NCBI RefSeq assembly: GCF_947487605.1
Contig: NZ_CANKXK010000009.1
Coordinates: 1-64,000, forward strand
From: an uncultured Algibacter sp.
GTDB lineage: Bacteria > Bacteroidota > Bacteroidia > Flavobacteriales > Flavobacteriaceae
DNA: 64,000 nucleotides
Reading direction: 5' to 3'
In this document: positions 50,269 through 58,626 of the stretch, in pieces
How the letters are laid out: each line of letters begins with the position of its first letter
Position numbering within the stretch: position 1 is the stretch's first letter
Notes under the pieces: model-generated
Seen by the model: the letters and a program-made list of their open reading frames with translations, nothing else
The model's database searches: none
What the model was told of the DNA's origin: nothing
Made by a program: the position numbers and the translations under genes

Positions 50269-51030
50269 TTAATTTTTTAATCCAGAAGCAGATTTTATTT
50301 TTAGCTCGCCACTACCAACAGGGATTTTAAATTTGGCATATACAAGAATTTTATTCTCATCTGCTGTAAGCCATAATAAATTATTATTACTTCCTTGTAG
50401 CACATTAGAATTCGATCCTATAGCCAATTTGTAACATTCTTTTGTGCCAATAGCTGTATTAATAGTTTCTTTTCCAAGATAGGTAATTTGTGCTTTTGTT
50501 TCTTTTCTGTCAAATATAATTGTGAACGATTTGCGTTGCCCGTTACTCATATTTTCATAATCAAACAATCTTATATTATATAAAGTAGATACAATGTCTT
50601 TTGTGCCAGCTCCAATAGAAACATTTTTCTTTTCTACATTATTGTTCTTTTTAGTTTGAACAGACTTTACGGTTTTTGTTTTATGGCTGAAGGTGTATTT
50701 CATAGCTTTATAATAGCTTCCTTCATTTATATCTCTATTGTATAAATAGGGTGTTAAGGTTTTGGGGTTTACATAACTTTCATATAAATCTCTAATCTTA
50801 AAAAAATTATCCCATTTACTGTAGGTAGCAGCAGTACATTTTAGTCTAAGTAGAGTTGCTTTCGATGTTTTTACTTCGCTAGTCTGCATAGTAACTTGAG
50901 CAATATTAGTTAATATACCAGACATATTATAACTAGCTGTATAGGTTAATTTTTCATTTGTTCCTATAGTACTATTTTGTGCTTGAGTAGCAAATGATAT
51001 TAAAAAAATTAAAAGAAGAGATATGCGCAT
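50269..51030 (-). CDS. Exported DUF3108 domain protein
   Basis: A protein of 253 residues that starts MRISLLLIFLISFATQAQ (signal peptide); the track start at 51072 adds a hydrophilic stretch before it and is unlikely. The mature domain is all-beta, with KLTYTASYNMSGILTNIAQVTMQ, FKIRDLYESYVNPKTLTPYLYNRDINEGSYYKAMKYTF and LGKETINTAIGTKECYKLAI. These are typical DUF3108 blocks. It is probably periplasmic or outer membrane with unknown role. A minus-strand TATTTTTG box lies about 50 nt upstream. Confidence 0.87.
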   Translation of the reverse strand: MRISLLLIFLISFATQAQNSTIGTNEKLTYTASYNMSGILTNIAQVTMQTSEVKTSKATLLRLKCTAATYSKWDNFFKIRDLYESYVNPKTLTPYLYNRDINEGSYYKAMKYTFSHKTKTVKSVQTKKNNNVEKKNVSIGAGTKDIVSTLYNIRLFDYENMSNGQRKSFTIIFDRKETKAQITYLGKETINTAIGTKECYKLAIGSNSNVLQGSNNNLLWLTADENKILVYAKFKIPVGSGELKIKSASGLKN

Positions 51031-51140
51031 TTTAGATAATAATTTTTTATTGTATAATGAAGCAGGATGCATTTATTGTGCCAAAAATACGATGCTTTGT
51101 ATAATTAAGCTAATTTTTTAATATGGCGATTTGTAAACCT

Positions 51141-52155: not shown

Positions 52156-52575
52156 CTACTGTCCTTCTTTTATATATCCCCAGCCTTCATTTTGTTTCGT
52201 TACAATTTCTAGAATGCCATCGGGTACGCTTCTTACACCTTCAATAATATCTGAAGCTTCTGCCTTATGACGTTTCATTGTGCCTTCGCAAATAACAAAA
52301 TCGACATTGTTTTTTTGAATAAGATTAGCAATGTCTTCTGCTACCACAGACTTTTCCTTTAATACCATTTCCATAGCGCCACTATACATAACAACTTCAA
52401 ATTGTGAATTTGGATATGCTGCCGACATTGCTTTTACATGCCTAACGGTAGACTTATGAACACTTGTATTATTACTAGTAACGTCAAATACTATTTTAAC
52501 AGGTTCTTCTTGCGAAAAAGTTATTGCTGTAATAAGGCTCGCTATTAATAATGTGAAAATTTTTTTCATAATCAT
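52156..52575 (-). CDS. Exported DsrE family protein
   Basis: This 139-residue protein has a signal peptide (MKKIFTLLIASLITAITFSQ). A DsrE/DsrF-like fold follows: VKIVFDVTSNNTSVHKSTVRHVKAM, FEVVMYSGAMEMVL, NNVDFVICEGTMKRHK. The single mature cysteine (ICEGTM) is in the position of the DsrE active Cys. Related proteins carry or relay sulfur. It is the third gene of a tight operon after a dihaem cytochrome and a Tat-exported protein, so a periplasmic sulfur or redox role is likely. Confidence 0.85.
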   Translation of the reverse strand: MIMKKIFTLLIASLITAITFSQEEPVKIVFDVTSNNTSVHKSTVRHVKAMSAAYPNSQFEVVMYSGAMEMVLKEKSVVAEDIANLIQKNNVDFVICEGTMKRHKAEASDIIEGVRSVPDGILEIVTKQNEGWGYIKEGQ

Positions 52576-52585
52576 AATTGTTTAG

Positions 52586-53263
52586 TTATTCGCCTGCAAA
52601 AATATACCCACAACCTTTTGCTTGTGCTTTTCCAAGAGCCCATACGCCAGATGGCACTAATTCAATATCTGAAATAATACCCGCTACCCAGTCTTTGTAA
52701 ATTTCTTCGGCGTTTCCACCGTTTTTTTCTGCATATTTTCCACTATACACTTGGAGGGCTAAATTACAAACGCAAAAGAGAGCACCTCTTCCTTGCATTT
52801 CTTTAATGCCTCCAGGGCCGTTAATAGGGTAATCGCCATCTTGTGGTTCGTGCCATGGATTTCTTAGCGCAAAATCTTTTGTGTGATCTTTTACTCCGAA
52901 AAATTCGCCTAATTTATATTTTGCCCAAGTTTCATCATTTAATGCTAAAGGAATAGCGGAATGACGTAAAACGGACATTGCTGTTATGTCGGTATCTGGT
53001 GAATCTGTTGAATTGTGAGATAAGTAAAATGCCCAATTCCAAAGAATAGGTAAACCTGCATGTGGTGTCGAGCCATCATATACTATACGATGTGTGCCTT
53101 TAATTTTGTCGAACCAATTTTCTGTAGCTTTCATTCCTTTAACGTCAAAAGCTTTTGTGCTTGCGTAAATTGGATTTGCTAGCACAGATATTGTACTTGC
53201 TGTAGCTCCTAGGGCTAGGGCTCCTAAAAATTGCCGTCTTGAATTACTGTCATTTGTTTTCAT
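52586..53263 (-). CDS. Tat-exported protein of unknown function
   Basis: A 225-residue protein with a twin-arginine signal (SRRQFLGALALGATASTISVLANP). The mature part has conserved-looking ILWNWAFYLSHNSTDSP, HSAIPLALND and AQAKGCGYIFAGE, and a CVCNLALQ pair. Tat export implies folding in the cytosol, often with a cofactor. I do not recognise the family. Spacing (3 nt from the cytochrome gene, 10 nt to DsrE) shows it belongs to their operon. It may be a partner of the TsdA-like cytochrome. Confidence 0.78.
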   Translation of the reverse strand: MKTNDSNSRRQFLGALALGATASTISVLANPIYASTKAFDVKGMKATENWFDKIKGTHRIVYDGSTPHAGLPILWNWAFYLSHNSTDSPDTDITAMSVLRHSAIPLALNDETWAKYKLGEFFGVKDHTKDFALRNPWHEPQDGDYPINGPGGIKEMQGRGALFCVCNLALQVYSGKYAEKNGGNAEEIYKDWVAGIISDIELVPSGVWALGKAQAKGCGYIFAGE

Positions 53264-53266
53264 AAT

Positions 53267-54307
53267 TTACTTGGTTTTAGTTATATTGTATTCTTGTTTA
53301 TAAAATGCCATTATTGGCTGAAATGGTCCTAATTTATGTTGTTCAATAGGGAAGTTATCTGCATAAGGTGGGTAAGGTGTAGAAACGGGTTTTTTCTTTA
53401 TATCTGGAAAGTCTTTTTCTGGGTTTGATTTTTGAGGGCGATCGTGCATATTAATAAACCCTGCAACATCATAGGCTTCTTCATCGGTTAAAACAGGAGC
53501 ATCATATGTAGCAAGTTCAAATGGCATGTTTCCTTTTATAAATTTTGCTGCAGTAATAACTCGCGTCATGCCAGCGCCATTATTAAATGAATCGTCTCCC
53601 CAAAGAGGTGGGTATTCATAACTATAACCATCAGCGTATAATGTGCCTTGTCCATCTATTCCATGGCAAGTAACACAATGTTGGGTAAACACTTTTTTGC
53701 CATTATCAAGGTTTACTGCTCTATTAGGTATTTTAAGTTTTAAAAATCCTTTGCCTTTTATTTCTCCATCTTCTGGTGCAAACCGGCTTAACCATTTTAA
53801 ATAAGCAACCATGCCTTTCATTTCTTTACTTTCAAGTGGTAATACGCGTCCATTCATACTACGTTCCATGCAGCCATTTATACGTTCTTCTATAGTGCCG
53901 ATTTTATTTTCGCGCCCTCTAAATTGTGGAAACCTTTGTATGATTCCTATTAGTGGCGCAGAATATGGTTGTGTTCCTAAACCTAAATGGCAATTTCTAC
54001 AAGCTAACCTGTTATTTTGATACACCATATCTGGGTTTCCATTGTCTGTCCCTATATATTTTGGTGTTTTTTGAAATAGTTCGAATCCATATTTTAGAAG
54101 TTCATTGTCTTTAGAGTCTGGTAATGTTGAAACATCATAATTCATATAATAAATATTAGAAATCTTGTTTTTGGATTTAAACAAATCTAAAGGGATAACA
54201 TCGAAACAACAGCACAGAGTTAAGAAAGCGATTACTAATATTGAACCAAAGTACATAAATACTAGTCTTCTAATTTTTTTGTAAAACGGTGGTACTTCTT
54301 TGTTCAT
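53267..54307 (-). CDS. Dihaem c-type cytochrome, thiosulfate dehydrogenase (TsdA)-like
   Basis: This 346-residue protein has one N-terminal membrane helix (FMYFGSILVIAFLTLCCCF) and two haem sites, CRNCH and CVTCH. QRFPQFRGRENKIGTIEERINGCMERSMNGRVLP and MKGMVAYLKWL match TsdA and related periplasmic dihaem cytochromes that join thiosulfate to tetrathionate or do the reverse. Maturation would need the CcsBA encoded at 34-37 kb. It is the first gene of a three-gene operon with a Tat protein and a DsrE protein. The sulfur substrate is inferred only. Confidence 0.88.
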   Translation of the reverse strand: MNKEVPPFYKKIRRLVFMYFGSILVIAFLTLCCCFDVIPLDLFKSKNKISNIYYMNYDVSTLPDSKDNELLKYGFELFQKTPKYIGTDNGNPDMVYQNNRLACRNCHLGLGTQPYSAPLIGIIQRFPQFRGRENKIGTIEERINGCMERSMNGRVLPLESKEMKGMVAYLKWLSRFAPEDGEIKGKGFLKLKIPNRAVNLDNGKKVFTQHCVTCHGIDGQGTLYADGYSYEYPPLWGDDSFNNGAGMTRVITAAKFIKGNMPFELATYDAPVLTDEEAYDVAGFINMHDRPQKSNPEKDFPDIKKKPVSTPYPPYADNFPIEQHKLGPFQPIMAFYKQEYNITKTK

Positions 54308-54520: not shown

Positions 54521-57500
54521 TCATTTTTTGTAAGTTAATTGCTTTTTGATTTTGTTATTTTGAATTAATTTAAACCTGTTAACAGGGGTAGAGAATGCCA
54601 TGTTTAAATACTTGTCAAATCTTCTATCTACTTGTTTTTGAATCTTTAATATTCGAGAATTATATACTTCTTTATTATTTTCGAATAATTTTGAAAAACG
54701 TTTCTCCAGTTTTAAATAGTCTCCAATTTTTATTGAAGGTATATTAGAATCTAACTGAAGTGTATTTAGTTTTTTTTCTGATTGTCTTGGATCGTTTCTA
54801 TATAATAGCCATTGGCCAGAATCTACTGCTGCTTTATGATATTGACTTGGATTTTTCATGTCGATACCATGAGAATCACTATGGCAATAGGCAATTATTA
54901 TGGATGGGCCATCAAAACTTTCTGCTTCATTAAAAGCTTTAAGAGTTTGGTCTTGGTCTGCACCAATAGCAACAGAAGCCACATATACATTATTGTAAGT
55001 CATTGCTAATAACCCTAAATCTTTCTTTTGTTTTTGTTTTCCATTATAGGCGAACTTTGTTTGTGCTCCGTAAGGTGTAGATTTAGAGGCTTGAGCGCCT
55101 GTATTATCGTAAACTTCGTTGTCTAAAACAAGAATATTTACATTGGCACCACTAGCCATAACATGATCTAGTCCACCATATCCAATGTCGTATGCCCAAC
55201 CATCACCACCAACTATCCATACACTTTTTTTAATTAAATTATCGACTACATTTAGCAATTGCTTTGCTACTGGAGATTGAATTTTTTTAAGCTGTTCTTT
55301 TAATGTTTCAACAAGTAATCGTTGATTACTAATTTCAGTTTCAGTTGTTTGTTCGTTATTTAGAATGTCGTGAACCAAATCGAAGTTTAATTGTGGTAAT
55401 AAGGATTCTAAAAGTTGTTTTGCTTTTTGTTTTTGTTGGTTTATTGAAATCCTAAAGCCTAGTCCAAATTCGGCATTATCTTCAAACAGTGAATTCGACC
55501 AAGCTGGACCGTGTCCGTTTTTATTTTGAGACCAAGGAGTTGTAGGTAAAGCACCTCCAAAAATAGAACTAGCACCTGTTGCGTTGGCAATTAACAATCT
55601 ATCGCCAAACAATTGGGTTATTAGTTTTAAATAGGGTGCTTCACTACAACCTTCAACACCACTTGAATATTTGAATAAAGGTTCTTGTAATTGTTGTTGA
55701 CTCACTTTTGTTGTATCAATTTTTGTTCTATCTAATTCTGGAATCGATTTAAAGTAATTCCAATTAGTTGTTTCTTTTTGTGTATTTTCACTTTTATTAA
55801 CCATTTTTAAAGCCTTAACAAGACAAGCATCAACACAATTATTACAGCTATTACATTGTTCGTGATTTATTTGAATTGTGTAATTCATTAAATCAAAATC
55901 TTCAGAGTTTATCTTTTTTAATGTATTAGGAGCTTCATTTGAAATTTCATCATCATATACTTTAATTCTTAAAGCAGCTTGAGGACATGCCATACTACAT
56001 GCACCACATTGTGTGCACAAATTTGAATCCCAATCGGGTATGTATTTACCAACCTGAAACGGATTGAATTTAGAAGTGTTGGTTTGAAAAGTCCCATCGG
56101 TAGGTAATAAGCTTACAGGTATACTGGTTTCGTTGTTTTTAAGCATTTTGCCTAAAAGGCTATTACTGAATTCGTTATCAAATTCTGATACAATAGATTC
56201 TTTTTTATACCCATATGAGGTATCAACGCTGTAGATAAAGTCTCTTAAATCAATTATAGATTCATCATAGATTAAATCTGTTTTAATAGCTAAGAAACAG
56301 GCATGAAGTTCAGAAATTGATTTTAAATTTGAAATATGATTTTCTCTGATTTCATCAAAATTTACAATCATTAGATTGATGTTTTTTTCAATTACTTGAT
56401 ATTGTTTGTTAGCAGATAAAGATTGCCAAAATGCTTTAGACGTTTGTGAAGTATTAACCAGTAATGTGCCTCCTGGTTTTAAATTGTTTATTGCGTTGTC
56501 GTTTTGTGCGAAGTATGCATTTTGGCAACCTATAAAATCGGCTTGTTTTATTAAATATGGGGCTTTTATTTGTTTATTGTTTATGCGTAAATGTGCTACA
56601 TTGCTTGAGTTTGATTTTTTATAATCTAGCTCTGTATAGCCTTGAACAAAAGTGTCGTCTATGTTTTCAATGAGTTTTAAAGTGTTTGTGAAACTCTTAG
56701 AAATAGCTTTGCTTTTATCTTGATAGAAAATAGCTTGATAAGCGTTGTTTTCTAGTTTTATATTTTCAGAATAGTCTAAACTCAAATTTTTAACATCGTC
56801 ATTTATTCCAATGGTGAAATTGTTTTTTGGAAATTCTAATTTTAAGTTTTTGAAAATAGCATGAACCATATTAGGGGTAAATTCTTTTGAAGACAACCCG
56901 TAGCGGCCTCCAACGGTTTTAGGAAAAACACTTAATTGATTATTCTGAAATGCCTTAGTGATAGATTGAAGCACATCTAAATATAGTGGTTCGCCAGAAG
57001 AACCAGGTTCTTTTGTTCTATCTAGAACTGCTATCGATTTTATTGATTTTGGTAACGCTTCAATTAGATGTTTTGTGCTAAATGGTCTAAACAATCTAAT
57101 TTTAATGAGTCCGAATTTTTCTCCTTGCTTGTTTAGCTGATTTATAGTTTCTTCTATAGTTTCAGTAGAGGAAGCTATTGAAATAATTAGTTGTTCTGCA
57201 TTTGAATGTCCTATATAGTCGAAAAGCTTGTATTTTCTGCCAGTTAGTGTCGCAAATAAATCCATGTGCTTTTGTACAATATTTGGGCAGTTATCATAGA
57301 ATAGGTTAGCAGCTTCTCTACTTTCAAAAAACACATCTGGCCCTTGAGCGCTTCCTCTAAGACCAGGTTTGTTTGGATTTAAAGCTCTATTTTTATGTTT
57401 AAGGATGGCATTTGAATCCATCATGAATTGAATGTTTGCATCAGAAACAGTTTCAATTTTAGATAATTCATGAGACGTTCTAAATCCGTCAAAAAAGTGA

Positions 57501-58006
57501 ATAAATGGAATTTGAGATTCTAATGATGCCGTTTGGGCTATTAGGGAAAAATCTTGTGCTTCTTGAACTGATGCACTAGCTAACATGGCATATCCAGATT
57601 GTCTTACAGCCATAATATCGCTATGGTCTCCAAATATTGATAGAGCATGTGTAGCAATACTTCTGGTTGCGACATGAATTACATTTGGTGTAAGTTCGCC
57701 CGCTATTTTATACATATTTGGTAGCATCAATAATAAGCCTTGAGATGCTGTGAATGTAGATACTAATGAACCTGTTTGTAAAGCTCCATGCATCGCGCCT
57801 GCAACACCTGCTTCACTTTGCATTTGAAATACAGAAGGAATATCTCCAAAACAGTTTAGCTTTTTTTCTGCACTATACTGCTCTACAAGTTCGCTCATTT
57901 CTGAAGCTGGAGTGATTGGGTATATTGGAAAAACCTCATTGGTTTTATAAGCAATTCTTGCAACGGCTTCGTTGGCTGTTAGAATGCTATATTTTGAAGT
58001 TTTCAT
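54521..58006 (-). CDS. Pyruvate:ferredoxin/flavodoxin oxidoreductase (NifJ)-like, degenerate proximal cluster
   Basis: This 1161-residue protein has the full domain order of one-chain PFOR. Retained features are VFPIYPITPASEMSE (pyruvate site), FQMQSEAGVAGAMHGAL (Glu), ATRSIATHALSIFGDHSDI (Arg), the domain VI clusters CTQCGACSMACP and CNSCNNCVDAC, and GGDGWAYDIGYGGLDHV with a TPP site. By recalled alignment, the proximal [4Fe-4S] Cys are largely gone: GVEGC for CxGC, ATGASS for ATGCSS, and YCHSDSHG for Y(A/T)PCINHG. The domain III glycine motif (GLGADGTVGANK type) is replaced by YQDKSKAISKSF. NTGGQ is NTGAQ. It follows osmC across a hairpin with no room for its own promoter. Confidence 0.9.
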   Translation of the reverse strand: MKTSKYSILTANEAVARIAYKTNEVFPIYPITPASEMSELVEQYSAEKKLNCFGDIPSVFQMQSEAGVAGAMHGALQTGSLVSTFTASQGLLLMLPNMYKIAGELTPNVIHVATRSIATHALSIFGDHSDIMAVRQSGYAMLASASVQEAQDFSLIAQTASLESQIPFIHFFDGFRTSHELSKIETVSDANIQFMMDSNAILKHKNRALNPNKPGLRGSAQGPDVFFESREAANLFYDNCPNIVQKHMDLFATLTGRKYKLFDYIGHSNAEQLIISIASSTETIEETINQLNKQGEKFGLIKIRLFRPFSTKHLIEALPKSIKSIAVLDRTKEPGSSGEPLYLDVLQSITKAFQNNQLSVFPKTVGGRYGLSSKEFTPNMVHAIFKNLKLEFPKNNFTIGINDDVKNLSLDYSENIKLENNAYQAIFYQDKSKAISKSFTNTLKLIENIDDTFVQGYTELDYKKSNSSNVAHLRINNKQIKAPYLIKQADFIGCQNAYFAQNDNAINNLKPGGTLLVNTSQTSKAFWQSLSANKQYQVIEKNINLMIVNFDEIRENHISNLKSISELHACFLAIKTDLIYDESIIDLRDFIYSVDTSYGYKKESIVSEFDNEFSNSLLGKMLKNNETSIPVSLLPTDGTFQTNTSKFNPFQVGKYIPDWDSNLCTQCGACSMACPQAALRIKVYDDEISNEAPNTLKKINSEDFDLMNYTIQINHEQCNSCNNCVDACLVKALKMVNKSENTQKETTNWNYFKSIPELDRTKIDTTKVSQQQLQEPLFKYSSGVEGCSEAPYLKLITQLFGDRLLIANATGASSIFGGALPTTPWSQNKNGHGPAWSNSLFEDNAEFGLGFRISINQQKQKAKQLLESLLPQLNFDLVHDILNNEQTTETEISNQRLLVETLKEQLKKIQSPVAKQLLNVVDNLIKKSVWIVGGDGWAYDIGYGGLDHVMASGANVNILVLDNEVYDNTGAQASKSTPYGAQTKFAYNGKQKQKKDLGLLAMTYNNVYVASVAIGADQDQTLKAFNEAESFDGPSIIIAYCHSDSHGIDMKNPSQYHKAAVDSGQWLLYRNDPRQSEKKLNTLQLDSNIPSIKIGDYLKLEKRFSKLFENNKEVYNSRILKIQKQVDRRFDKYLNMAFSTPVNRFKLIQNNKIKKQLTYKK

Positions 58007-58071: not shown

Positions 58072-58626
58072 TTACTCTTTTACAATTTCAATTGAAACTG
58101 GAGTAGGGTTTGAAATCATATCAAACACTGGGGAGAATTTTGCCAACCTTTCTAATTGTTCAGCAGAAGCATCAGACTTAACTTTTAGTTGCATAGTAAT
58201 ACCATTGAAGCCAGTTCTTACTTCGGGATCTAAGCCTAAAAAGCCATGTAAATCGGCATTTCCCTTAATAGTTGATTGTGCGCCTTCTATTTCTATGCCA
58301 TTTGCTGCGGCATGGTATACCATTGCTCCTGTTAAGCAAGAGCTTAATGCGTGAAGGACTACTTCTGGAGGAGTCGCTGCCTCATCTTGCCCTAATAATA
58401 CTTGAGGGTGGCTACATTCCATAGTAAATGTTTCTTCTCGAGAAGCATCTTCTTGTCCAGCGCCATAAAAACTTTTAATACTTGATACACAATGTCCACC
58501 ATCTATCCAGTTGTTCTTAGCTCTAAATTCAAATTTTGCTAATTCTGGTTGCTCTTGAATGTGGTTAATAGTGTCTACCAATTGATCTACGTTTACGCCG
58601 TTTTTTACATTTGTTGTTGTAATCAT
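58072..58626 (-). CDS. OsmC family thiol peroxidase-like protein
   Basis: This 184-residue protein has the OsmC/Ohr fold and its two cysteines (TMECSHPQVLLGQDEAATPPEVVLHALSSCLTGAM). Family members reduce organic hydroperoxides or bind thiol or persulfide compounds. The YHAAANGIEIEGAQSTIKGNADLHGFLGL block is typical. It is the first gene behind a predicted sigma-54 promoter and an activator gene. A terminator-like hairpin lies between it and the PFOR-like gene. The pairing with an iron-sulfur enzyme suggests protection against, or use of, a reactive sulfur or oxygen species. Confidence 0.9.
   Translation of the reverse strand: MITTTNVKNGVNVDQLVDTINHIQEQPELAKFEFRAKNNWIDGGHCVSSIKSFYGAGQEDASREETFTMECSHPQVLLGQDEAATPPEVVLHALSSCLTGAMVYHAAANGIEIEGAQSTIKGNADLHGFLGLDPEVRTGFNGITMQLKVKSDASAEQLERLAKFSPVFDMISNPTPVSIEIVKE

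Follow-up and report, generated by a model that had tools for sequence, protein, structure and literature searches.

A pyruvate:ferredoxin oxidoreductase homologue of Flavobacteriaceae that lacks the proximal cluster ligands and is encoded beside an OsmC-family protein: probably a different enzyme

What reaction can be expected of a pyruvate:ferredoxin oxidoreductase (PFOR) that has lost the ligands of its proximal [4Fe-4S] cluster? The question is raised by a gene in a window of 64,000 nucleotides, the whole stretch of DNA that was analysed, from an uncultured Algibacter sp. (contig NZ_CANKXK010000009.1, positions 1 to 64,000). Because the proximal cluster accepts electrons from the intermediate on thiamine pyrophosphate (TPP), it alone of the clusters is retained even in the simplest 2-oxoacid:ferredoxin oxidoreductases (OFORs). 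The product of the gene, here called PFOR*, is best read from its sequence relationships as a neofunctionalised PFOR paralogue, carried by many marine flavobacteria and confined to the Flavobacteriaceae as far as sampled, that has probably become a different enzyme. The protein and the sites that carry this reading are the following.

54521..58006, minus strand: PFOR*, a proximal-cluster-less PFOR homologue of 1161 amino acids (open reading frame, alignments, profile score)
55655..55657, minus strand: V784, in place of proximal ligand C812 (alignment)
55646..55648, minus strand: C787, the sole retained proximal ligand (C815), Ser in the relative L106 (alignment)
55571..55573, minus strand: A812, in place of ligand C840 (alignment)
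54878..54880, minus strand: S1043, in place of ligand C1071 (alignment)
54884..54886, minus strand: C1041, a new Cys that precedes the lost C1071 by two residues, seen in 27 of 35 covered rows
56687..56722, minus strand: residues 429-440, the site of the canonical domain III motif GLGSDGTVGANK (alignment)
55823..56017, minus strand: ferredoxin-like domain, residues 664-728, with eight invariant Cys (alignment)
55103..55210, minus strand: TPP/Mg motif GGDGWAYDIG...LDNEVYDNTG, residues 933-968 (canonical T991 is N963 here)

By descent the protein is a PFOR. It scores 1361.6 bits with the TIGR02176 (PFOR/NifJ) profile against a cut-off of 911.35, its homology is full length and, among solved structures, the PFORs of Moorella thermoacetica and Desulfovibrio africanus are the closest to it. 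A first-pass annotation of the sequence had proposed that three of the four proximal cysteines are replaced, and alignment with the solved PFORs (6cin, 7plm, 1b0p) and with canonical flavobacterial PFORs bears this out. In the numbering of D. africanus PFOR, in which the ligands are C812, C815, C840 and C1071, the substitutions are C812>V784, C840>A812 and C1071>S1043, with C815 retained as C787, so that SGACxGCGE has become SSGVEGCSE, NATGCSS has become NATGASS and AYSHCxxHG has become AYCHSDSHG. C812, C815 and C840 are found in 105/105 canonical PFORs and C1071 is Cys in all 103 that cover its column. When four cysteines around the TPP site were sought in the alignment, no replacement ligand set was found beside C787, and in L106 all four proximal ligands are gone. 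A relocated cluster held by C787 and C1041 was considered and rejected, since several relatives have Ser, Thr or Ala at the C1041 position and L106 lacks C787.

The loss of a glycine-rich motif in domain III, likewise proposed at first pass, is equally clear, GLGSDGTVGANK of canonical PFORs (the GSDGTVGANK motif) being represented by QDKSKAISKSF in PFOR*, whereas the canonical residue at each differing site occurs in 98-100% of the 105 canonical sequences. The same annotation held that the TPP, pyruvate-side and ferredoxin-domain cluster residues remain, and they do so in every variant row that covers them. T32, E65, R115, D935 and N968 of PFOR*, which by alignment we take to be the catalytic T31, E64, R114, D963 and N996, are kept in every covered row, as are the eight ferredoxin-domain cysteines in 37/37 rows. 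In all variants the TPP motif is of the GDG...N form, with Asn at the equivalent of the Mg ligand T991, a position at which Sulfolobus OFOR also has Asn (PMC5020499). That T32, R115 and N968 are unchanged would argue mildly against a very different 2-oxoacid as substrate. The combination of two lost catalytic features with a retained ferredoxin domain might also describe a non-catalytic protein, a redox sensor or scaffold; this is very improbable, since the residues for TPP, Mg and the 2-oxoacid vary no more than they do in active PFORs.

An important consideration is whether the changes belong to a single sequence or to a lineage. In a tree of 142 sequences the variants form one clade with support 1.0 and a stem branch of 0.42. 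The loss of ligands is common to at least 34 distinct genomes, all Flavobacteriaceae, and to none of the 105 canonical sequences; the count consists of 32 of 301 sampled Flavobacteriaceae together with L102 and L106 among the matches listed in a scan of named genomes that relied on generic peptide patterns. The alignment holds 36 variant rows besides the query, two of which (L100 and L101) duplicate genomes among the 32. Named carriers include Kriegella aquimaris and Flagellimonas algicola, and no variant was found outside the family in a class-level PFOR search that sampled, and did not exhaust, the class (395 genomes). Some genomes hold both a canonical PFOR and the variant (G219, G196), and in G156 the canonical gene is accompanied by a short, divergent variant. 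The clade is under purifying selection, with dN/dS (nonsynonymous to synonymous rates) of 0.118/0.895 between PFOR* of the window and L002 and of 0.042/0.279 between L003 and L004, that is, about 0.13-0.15. An assembly or annotation error was rejected because identical substitutions recur across the 34 or more genomes, and a decaying pseudogene because of these ratios and because the remnant in G005 is the one broken copy, L031 being short and divergent. Some Flavobacteriaceae also have a second family of 1650-aa proteins that are remotely PFOR-like, at about 25% identity (L045 and G034:C2:122836-123906).

The suggestion of a changed reaction, whichever of those envisaged at first pass it may be (a different electron route, no coenzyme A (CoA), a different 2-oxoacid), is thus well supported by the joint loss in one clade, the purifying selection and the invariance of the TPP and ferredoxin residues. 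With both the proximal cluster and the domain III motif gone, no acetyl-CoA would be expected by the radical PFOR route, and the view that PFOR* would not act as a CoA-dependent PFOR is well supported. It is the sole PFOR match in the host draft genome of 3.38 Mb, which also encodes 2-oxoacid dehydrogenase E1 components (PF00676). In Sulfolobus OFOR1 the cluster is required for oxidative decarboxylation, and the conversion of pyruvate to acetaldehyde needs neither cluster nor CoA (PMC5020499); if PFOR* is the natural counterpart, CoA-free TPP-dependent decarboxylation is to be expected of it. The OFOR1 ligand mutants of Sulfolobus tokodaii resemble PFOR* in lacking the proximal cluster and still decarboxylate pyruvate, but they are engineered and have no ferredoxin domain, while the state of PFOR* is natural and conserved (PMC5020499). 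It is possible, though on balance unlikely, that matters end there and that PFOR* is simply a TPP enzyme of the non-oxidative kind, a decarboxylase or carboligase making acetaldehyde, acetolactate or acetoin, with the neighbouring OsmC a separate detoxification protein of the same regulon. The GDG...N motif in all variants fits this, and Pyrococcus furiosus POR also forms acetaldehyde, albeit in a CoA-dependent manner (PMC4030962), but the invariance of the eight ferredoxin cysteines would be unexplained and so would the features of OsmC described below.

The genes around PFOR* (an OsmC-family protein, sigma-54 and cyclic nucleotide monophosphate (cNMP) control, and in some loci TsdA-like and DsrE genes) shift the question to the acceptor. 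The conserved order is class III cyclase, cNMP-binding sigma-54 activator, sigma-54 promoter, osmC and the PFOR* gene.

58072..58626, minus strand: OsmC-family thiol protein of 184 amino acids, the operon partner (PF02566, 2opl match)
58489..58491, minus strand: OsmC C46, private to the PFOR*-linked OsmC (alignment)
58336..58338, minus strand: OsmC C97, present in all OsmC homologues compared (alignment)
58680..58696, minus strand: TTGGCATAGCAAATGCA, a sigma-54 promoter of the -24/-12 type that precedes osmC (pattern search)
58811..60655, minus strand: sigma-54 activator (GAFTGA) with a cNMP-binding domain (domain search)
60777..62807, plus strand: TPR-repeat adenylate/guanylate cyclase of class III, divergently oriented (domain search, gene order)

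The osmC gene lies directly upstream of PFOR* in 25/25 tabulated variant loci. Its product belongs to the OsmC fold family, with 44.5 bits for PF02566 (cut-off 27.5) and 154.6 bits for 2opl. An ortholog, 66-97% identical, occurs in 33 of the 301 genomes, namely all 32 with an intact PFOR* and one other, G221 (Fisher's exact test, 2e-42, uncorrected for relatedness); it is absent from both G067, whose PFOR* is a fragment lying at the edge of a contig, and G005, which has the broken remnant, and an order-level OsmC search found none outside the Flavobacteriaceae. The central-helix C97 is present in 25/25 operon OsmCs. So is C46, which is also found in four named-genome loci, in L029 and in G221, and is replaced by Asn or Val in nine OsmC paralogues and by Asn in 2opl. 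The C-terminal resolving Cys is absent, SPVFD standing where E. coli OsmC has CPV. The OsmC paralogues L184 and L185 adjoin an O-acetylhomoserine sulfhydrylase-like gene, so judged from its start, and a Tat-signal protein. In the closed state of the OsmC relative Ohr, the catalytic Arg19 is 6 A (C-alpha) away from the reactive Cys (PMC5962072), and C46 appears to align near the loop that carries this Arg.

These observations amount to a genetic link between OsmC and PFOR*, and OsmC is the best acceptor candidate because its relative Ohr is reduced by lipoylated proteins (PMC5962072). The reading tentatively preferred is that of a neofunctionalised TPP enzyme that would decarboxylate pyruvate, or a close 2-oxoacid, without CoA. 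The hydroxyethyl carbanion would be handed on, in the form of an acyl group, of two electrons or of both, to an acceptor other than CoA, most plausibly the thiols of OsmC, in which a redox pair or disulfide could be formed by C46 and C97. PFOR* would then use 2-oxoacids to reduce an OsmC peroxidase and be the counterpart, in one enzyme, of the lipoylated proteins that serve Ohr. A more specific proposal is possible and somewhat more speculative: PFOR* would charge or reduce a dedicated two-cysteine OsmC that replaces the lipoyl arm, and would represent a new enzyme type in the OFOR superfamily, a 2-oxoacid:OsmC oxidoreductase or acyltransferase. The strict pairing and the private C46 are what a plain non-oxidative enzyme would leave unexplained.

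Joint expression of the two genes is suggested by their control region. A -24/-12 element, TGGCAYR-N4-WTGCW, stands 59-73 bases before osmC in 20/25 loci as against 0.3% of shuffled sequences, and RpoN (PF04552) is encoded in the host genome. An activator gene is nearby in 23/25 loci and its product has a cNMP-binding domain (PF00027), an AAA domain with GAFTGA in 23/23 and a weak Fis-type helix-turn-helix; no PAS domain was detected. A class III cyclase, which either is of the TPR type or forms a fusion with a hybrid histidine kinase, is nearby in 23/25 loci by reading of the gene-order table, a count in which three short members of the cyclase cluster are unchecked. Cyclic-nucleotide control of the operon is the likely arrangement, in which the cNMP-responsive sigma-54 activator would switch on osmC and PFOR* together. 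Another site that fits TTGGCAN7TGCW perfectly (TTGGCACAATAAATGCA) lies at 51068-51084 (minus strand), at the start of a DUF3108 open reading frame (50269-51072, minus strand). Genes for a small membrane protein and for two M28 peptidases come after this frame, and the group may belong to the same sigma-54 regulon.

Several points weigh against OsmC as acceptor for a CoA-free enzyme. That the domain III motif takes part in binding CoA is an assumption. The predicted structure of PFOR*, for which Foldseek gave PFOR as the nearest fold, has a pLDDT of 74.3 and a pTM of 0.55, and its TPP site is modelled with low confidence. A control model of a canonical PFOR, made from the same sequences (pLDDT 74.0, pTM 0.70), is just as poor there, so that this weakness does not point to divergence. 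In G221 the operon (L180) comprises cyclase, activator, OsmC, TsdA-like cytochrome, Tat-signal (TSD-like) protein, a small protein at the DsrE position and a hybrid kinase-cyclase, with no PFOR*; the only PFOR is a canonical one elsewhere in the genome, so that an OsmC with C46 exists there independently of PFOR*. Above all, eight invariant ferredoxin cysteines are needless for a plain non-oxidative or an acyl-transfer enzyme, and their invariance, which transfer to OsmC would not explain, is the strongest point for a rival in which PFOR* still oxidises its substrate. Electrons would then leave by the ferredoxin domain, the missing cluster being bypassed by some other centre (a flavin, a different metal, a bound partner or the thiols C787/C1041), and water, phosphate or a protein thiol would take the place of CoA. 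This seems rather unlikely. Oxalate oxidoreductase is a CoA-independent member of the family (PMC5020499), but there is no new ligand set at the site of PFOR*, C1041 is not universal and L106 is without C787. Moreover, without a relay the distance from TPP to the medial cluster would be over 20 A.

A further rival arises from an optional module downstream.

53267..54307, minus strand: TsdA-like dihaem cytochrome c with two CXXCH and GCMERS (domain search)
52586..53263, minus strand: Tat-signal protein (weak NF052225 thiosulfate dehydrogenase match, far below cut-off)
52156..52575, minus strand: DsrE-family protein (domain search)

The Tat-signal protein is without a Pfam family and adjoins the TsdA-like gene where seen. 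The three genes follow PFOR* in 5/25 loci, and the TsdA-like and TSD-like genes lie directly downstream of OsmC in G221, which would be in keeping with a sulfur pathway in which PFOR* acts on a sulfur-containing 2-oxoacid or a persulfide acceptor, as would the sulfhydrylase-like gene beside some OsmC paralogues. The idea is doubtful, however, as 20/25 loci lack the module and the substrate-contact residues of PFOR* are those of pyruvate PFORs.

No description of the protein or its operon was found in the literature that was searched. PFOR/NifJ enzymes (TIGR02176; 6cin, 1b0p) share with PFOR* the full-length homology, domain order, TPP and pyruvate residues and ferredoxin-cluster ligands, but PFOR* is without three (in L106 four) proximal cysteines and GSDGTVGANK, and has T991>N. 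Oxalate oxidoreductase (5c4i) has the OFOR fold and works without CoA (PMC5020499) but is only remotely similar, with three subunits and three [4Fe-4S] clusters. The Ohr/OsmC peroxidases tie an OsmC-family thiol protein to 2-oxoacid oxidation (PMC5962072), as is proposed for the operon OsmC, but the operon protein has C46, lacks the C-terminal resolving Cys and has PFOR*, not a lipoylated protein, as its proposed partner. As PFOR* scores far above the TIGR02176 cut-off, automatic annotation will assign to it a pyruvate:ferredoxin oxidation that its sequence does not support. A natural, conserved clade without the proximal cluster and the domain III motif suggests that a PFOR can be converted into another enzyme, and opens to experiment the question of which parts of the radical mechanism can be dispensed with. 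If the link to OsmC is true, the decarboxylation of 2-oxoacids would be coupled to thiol or peroxide chemistry with no need of lipoate.
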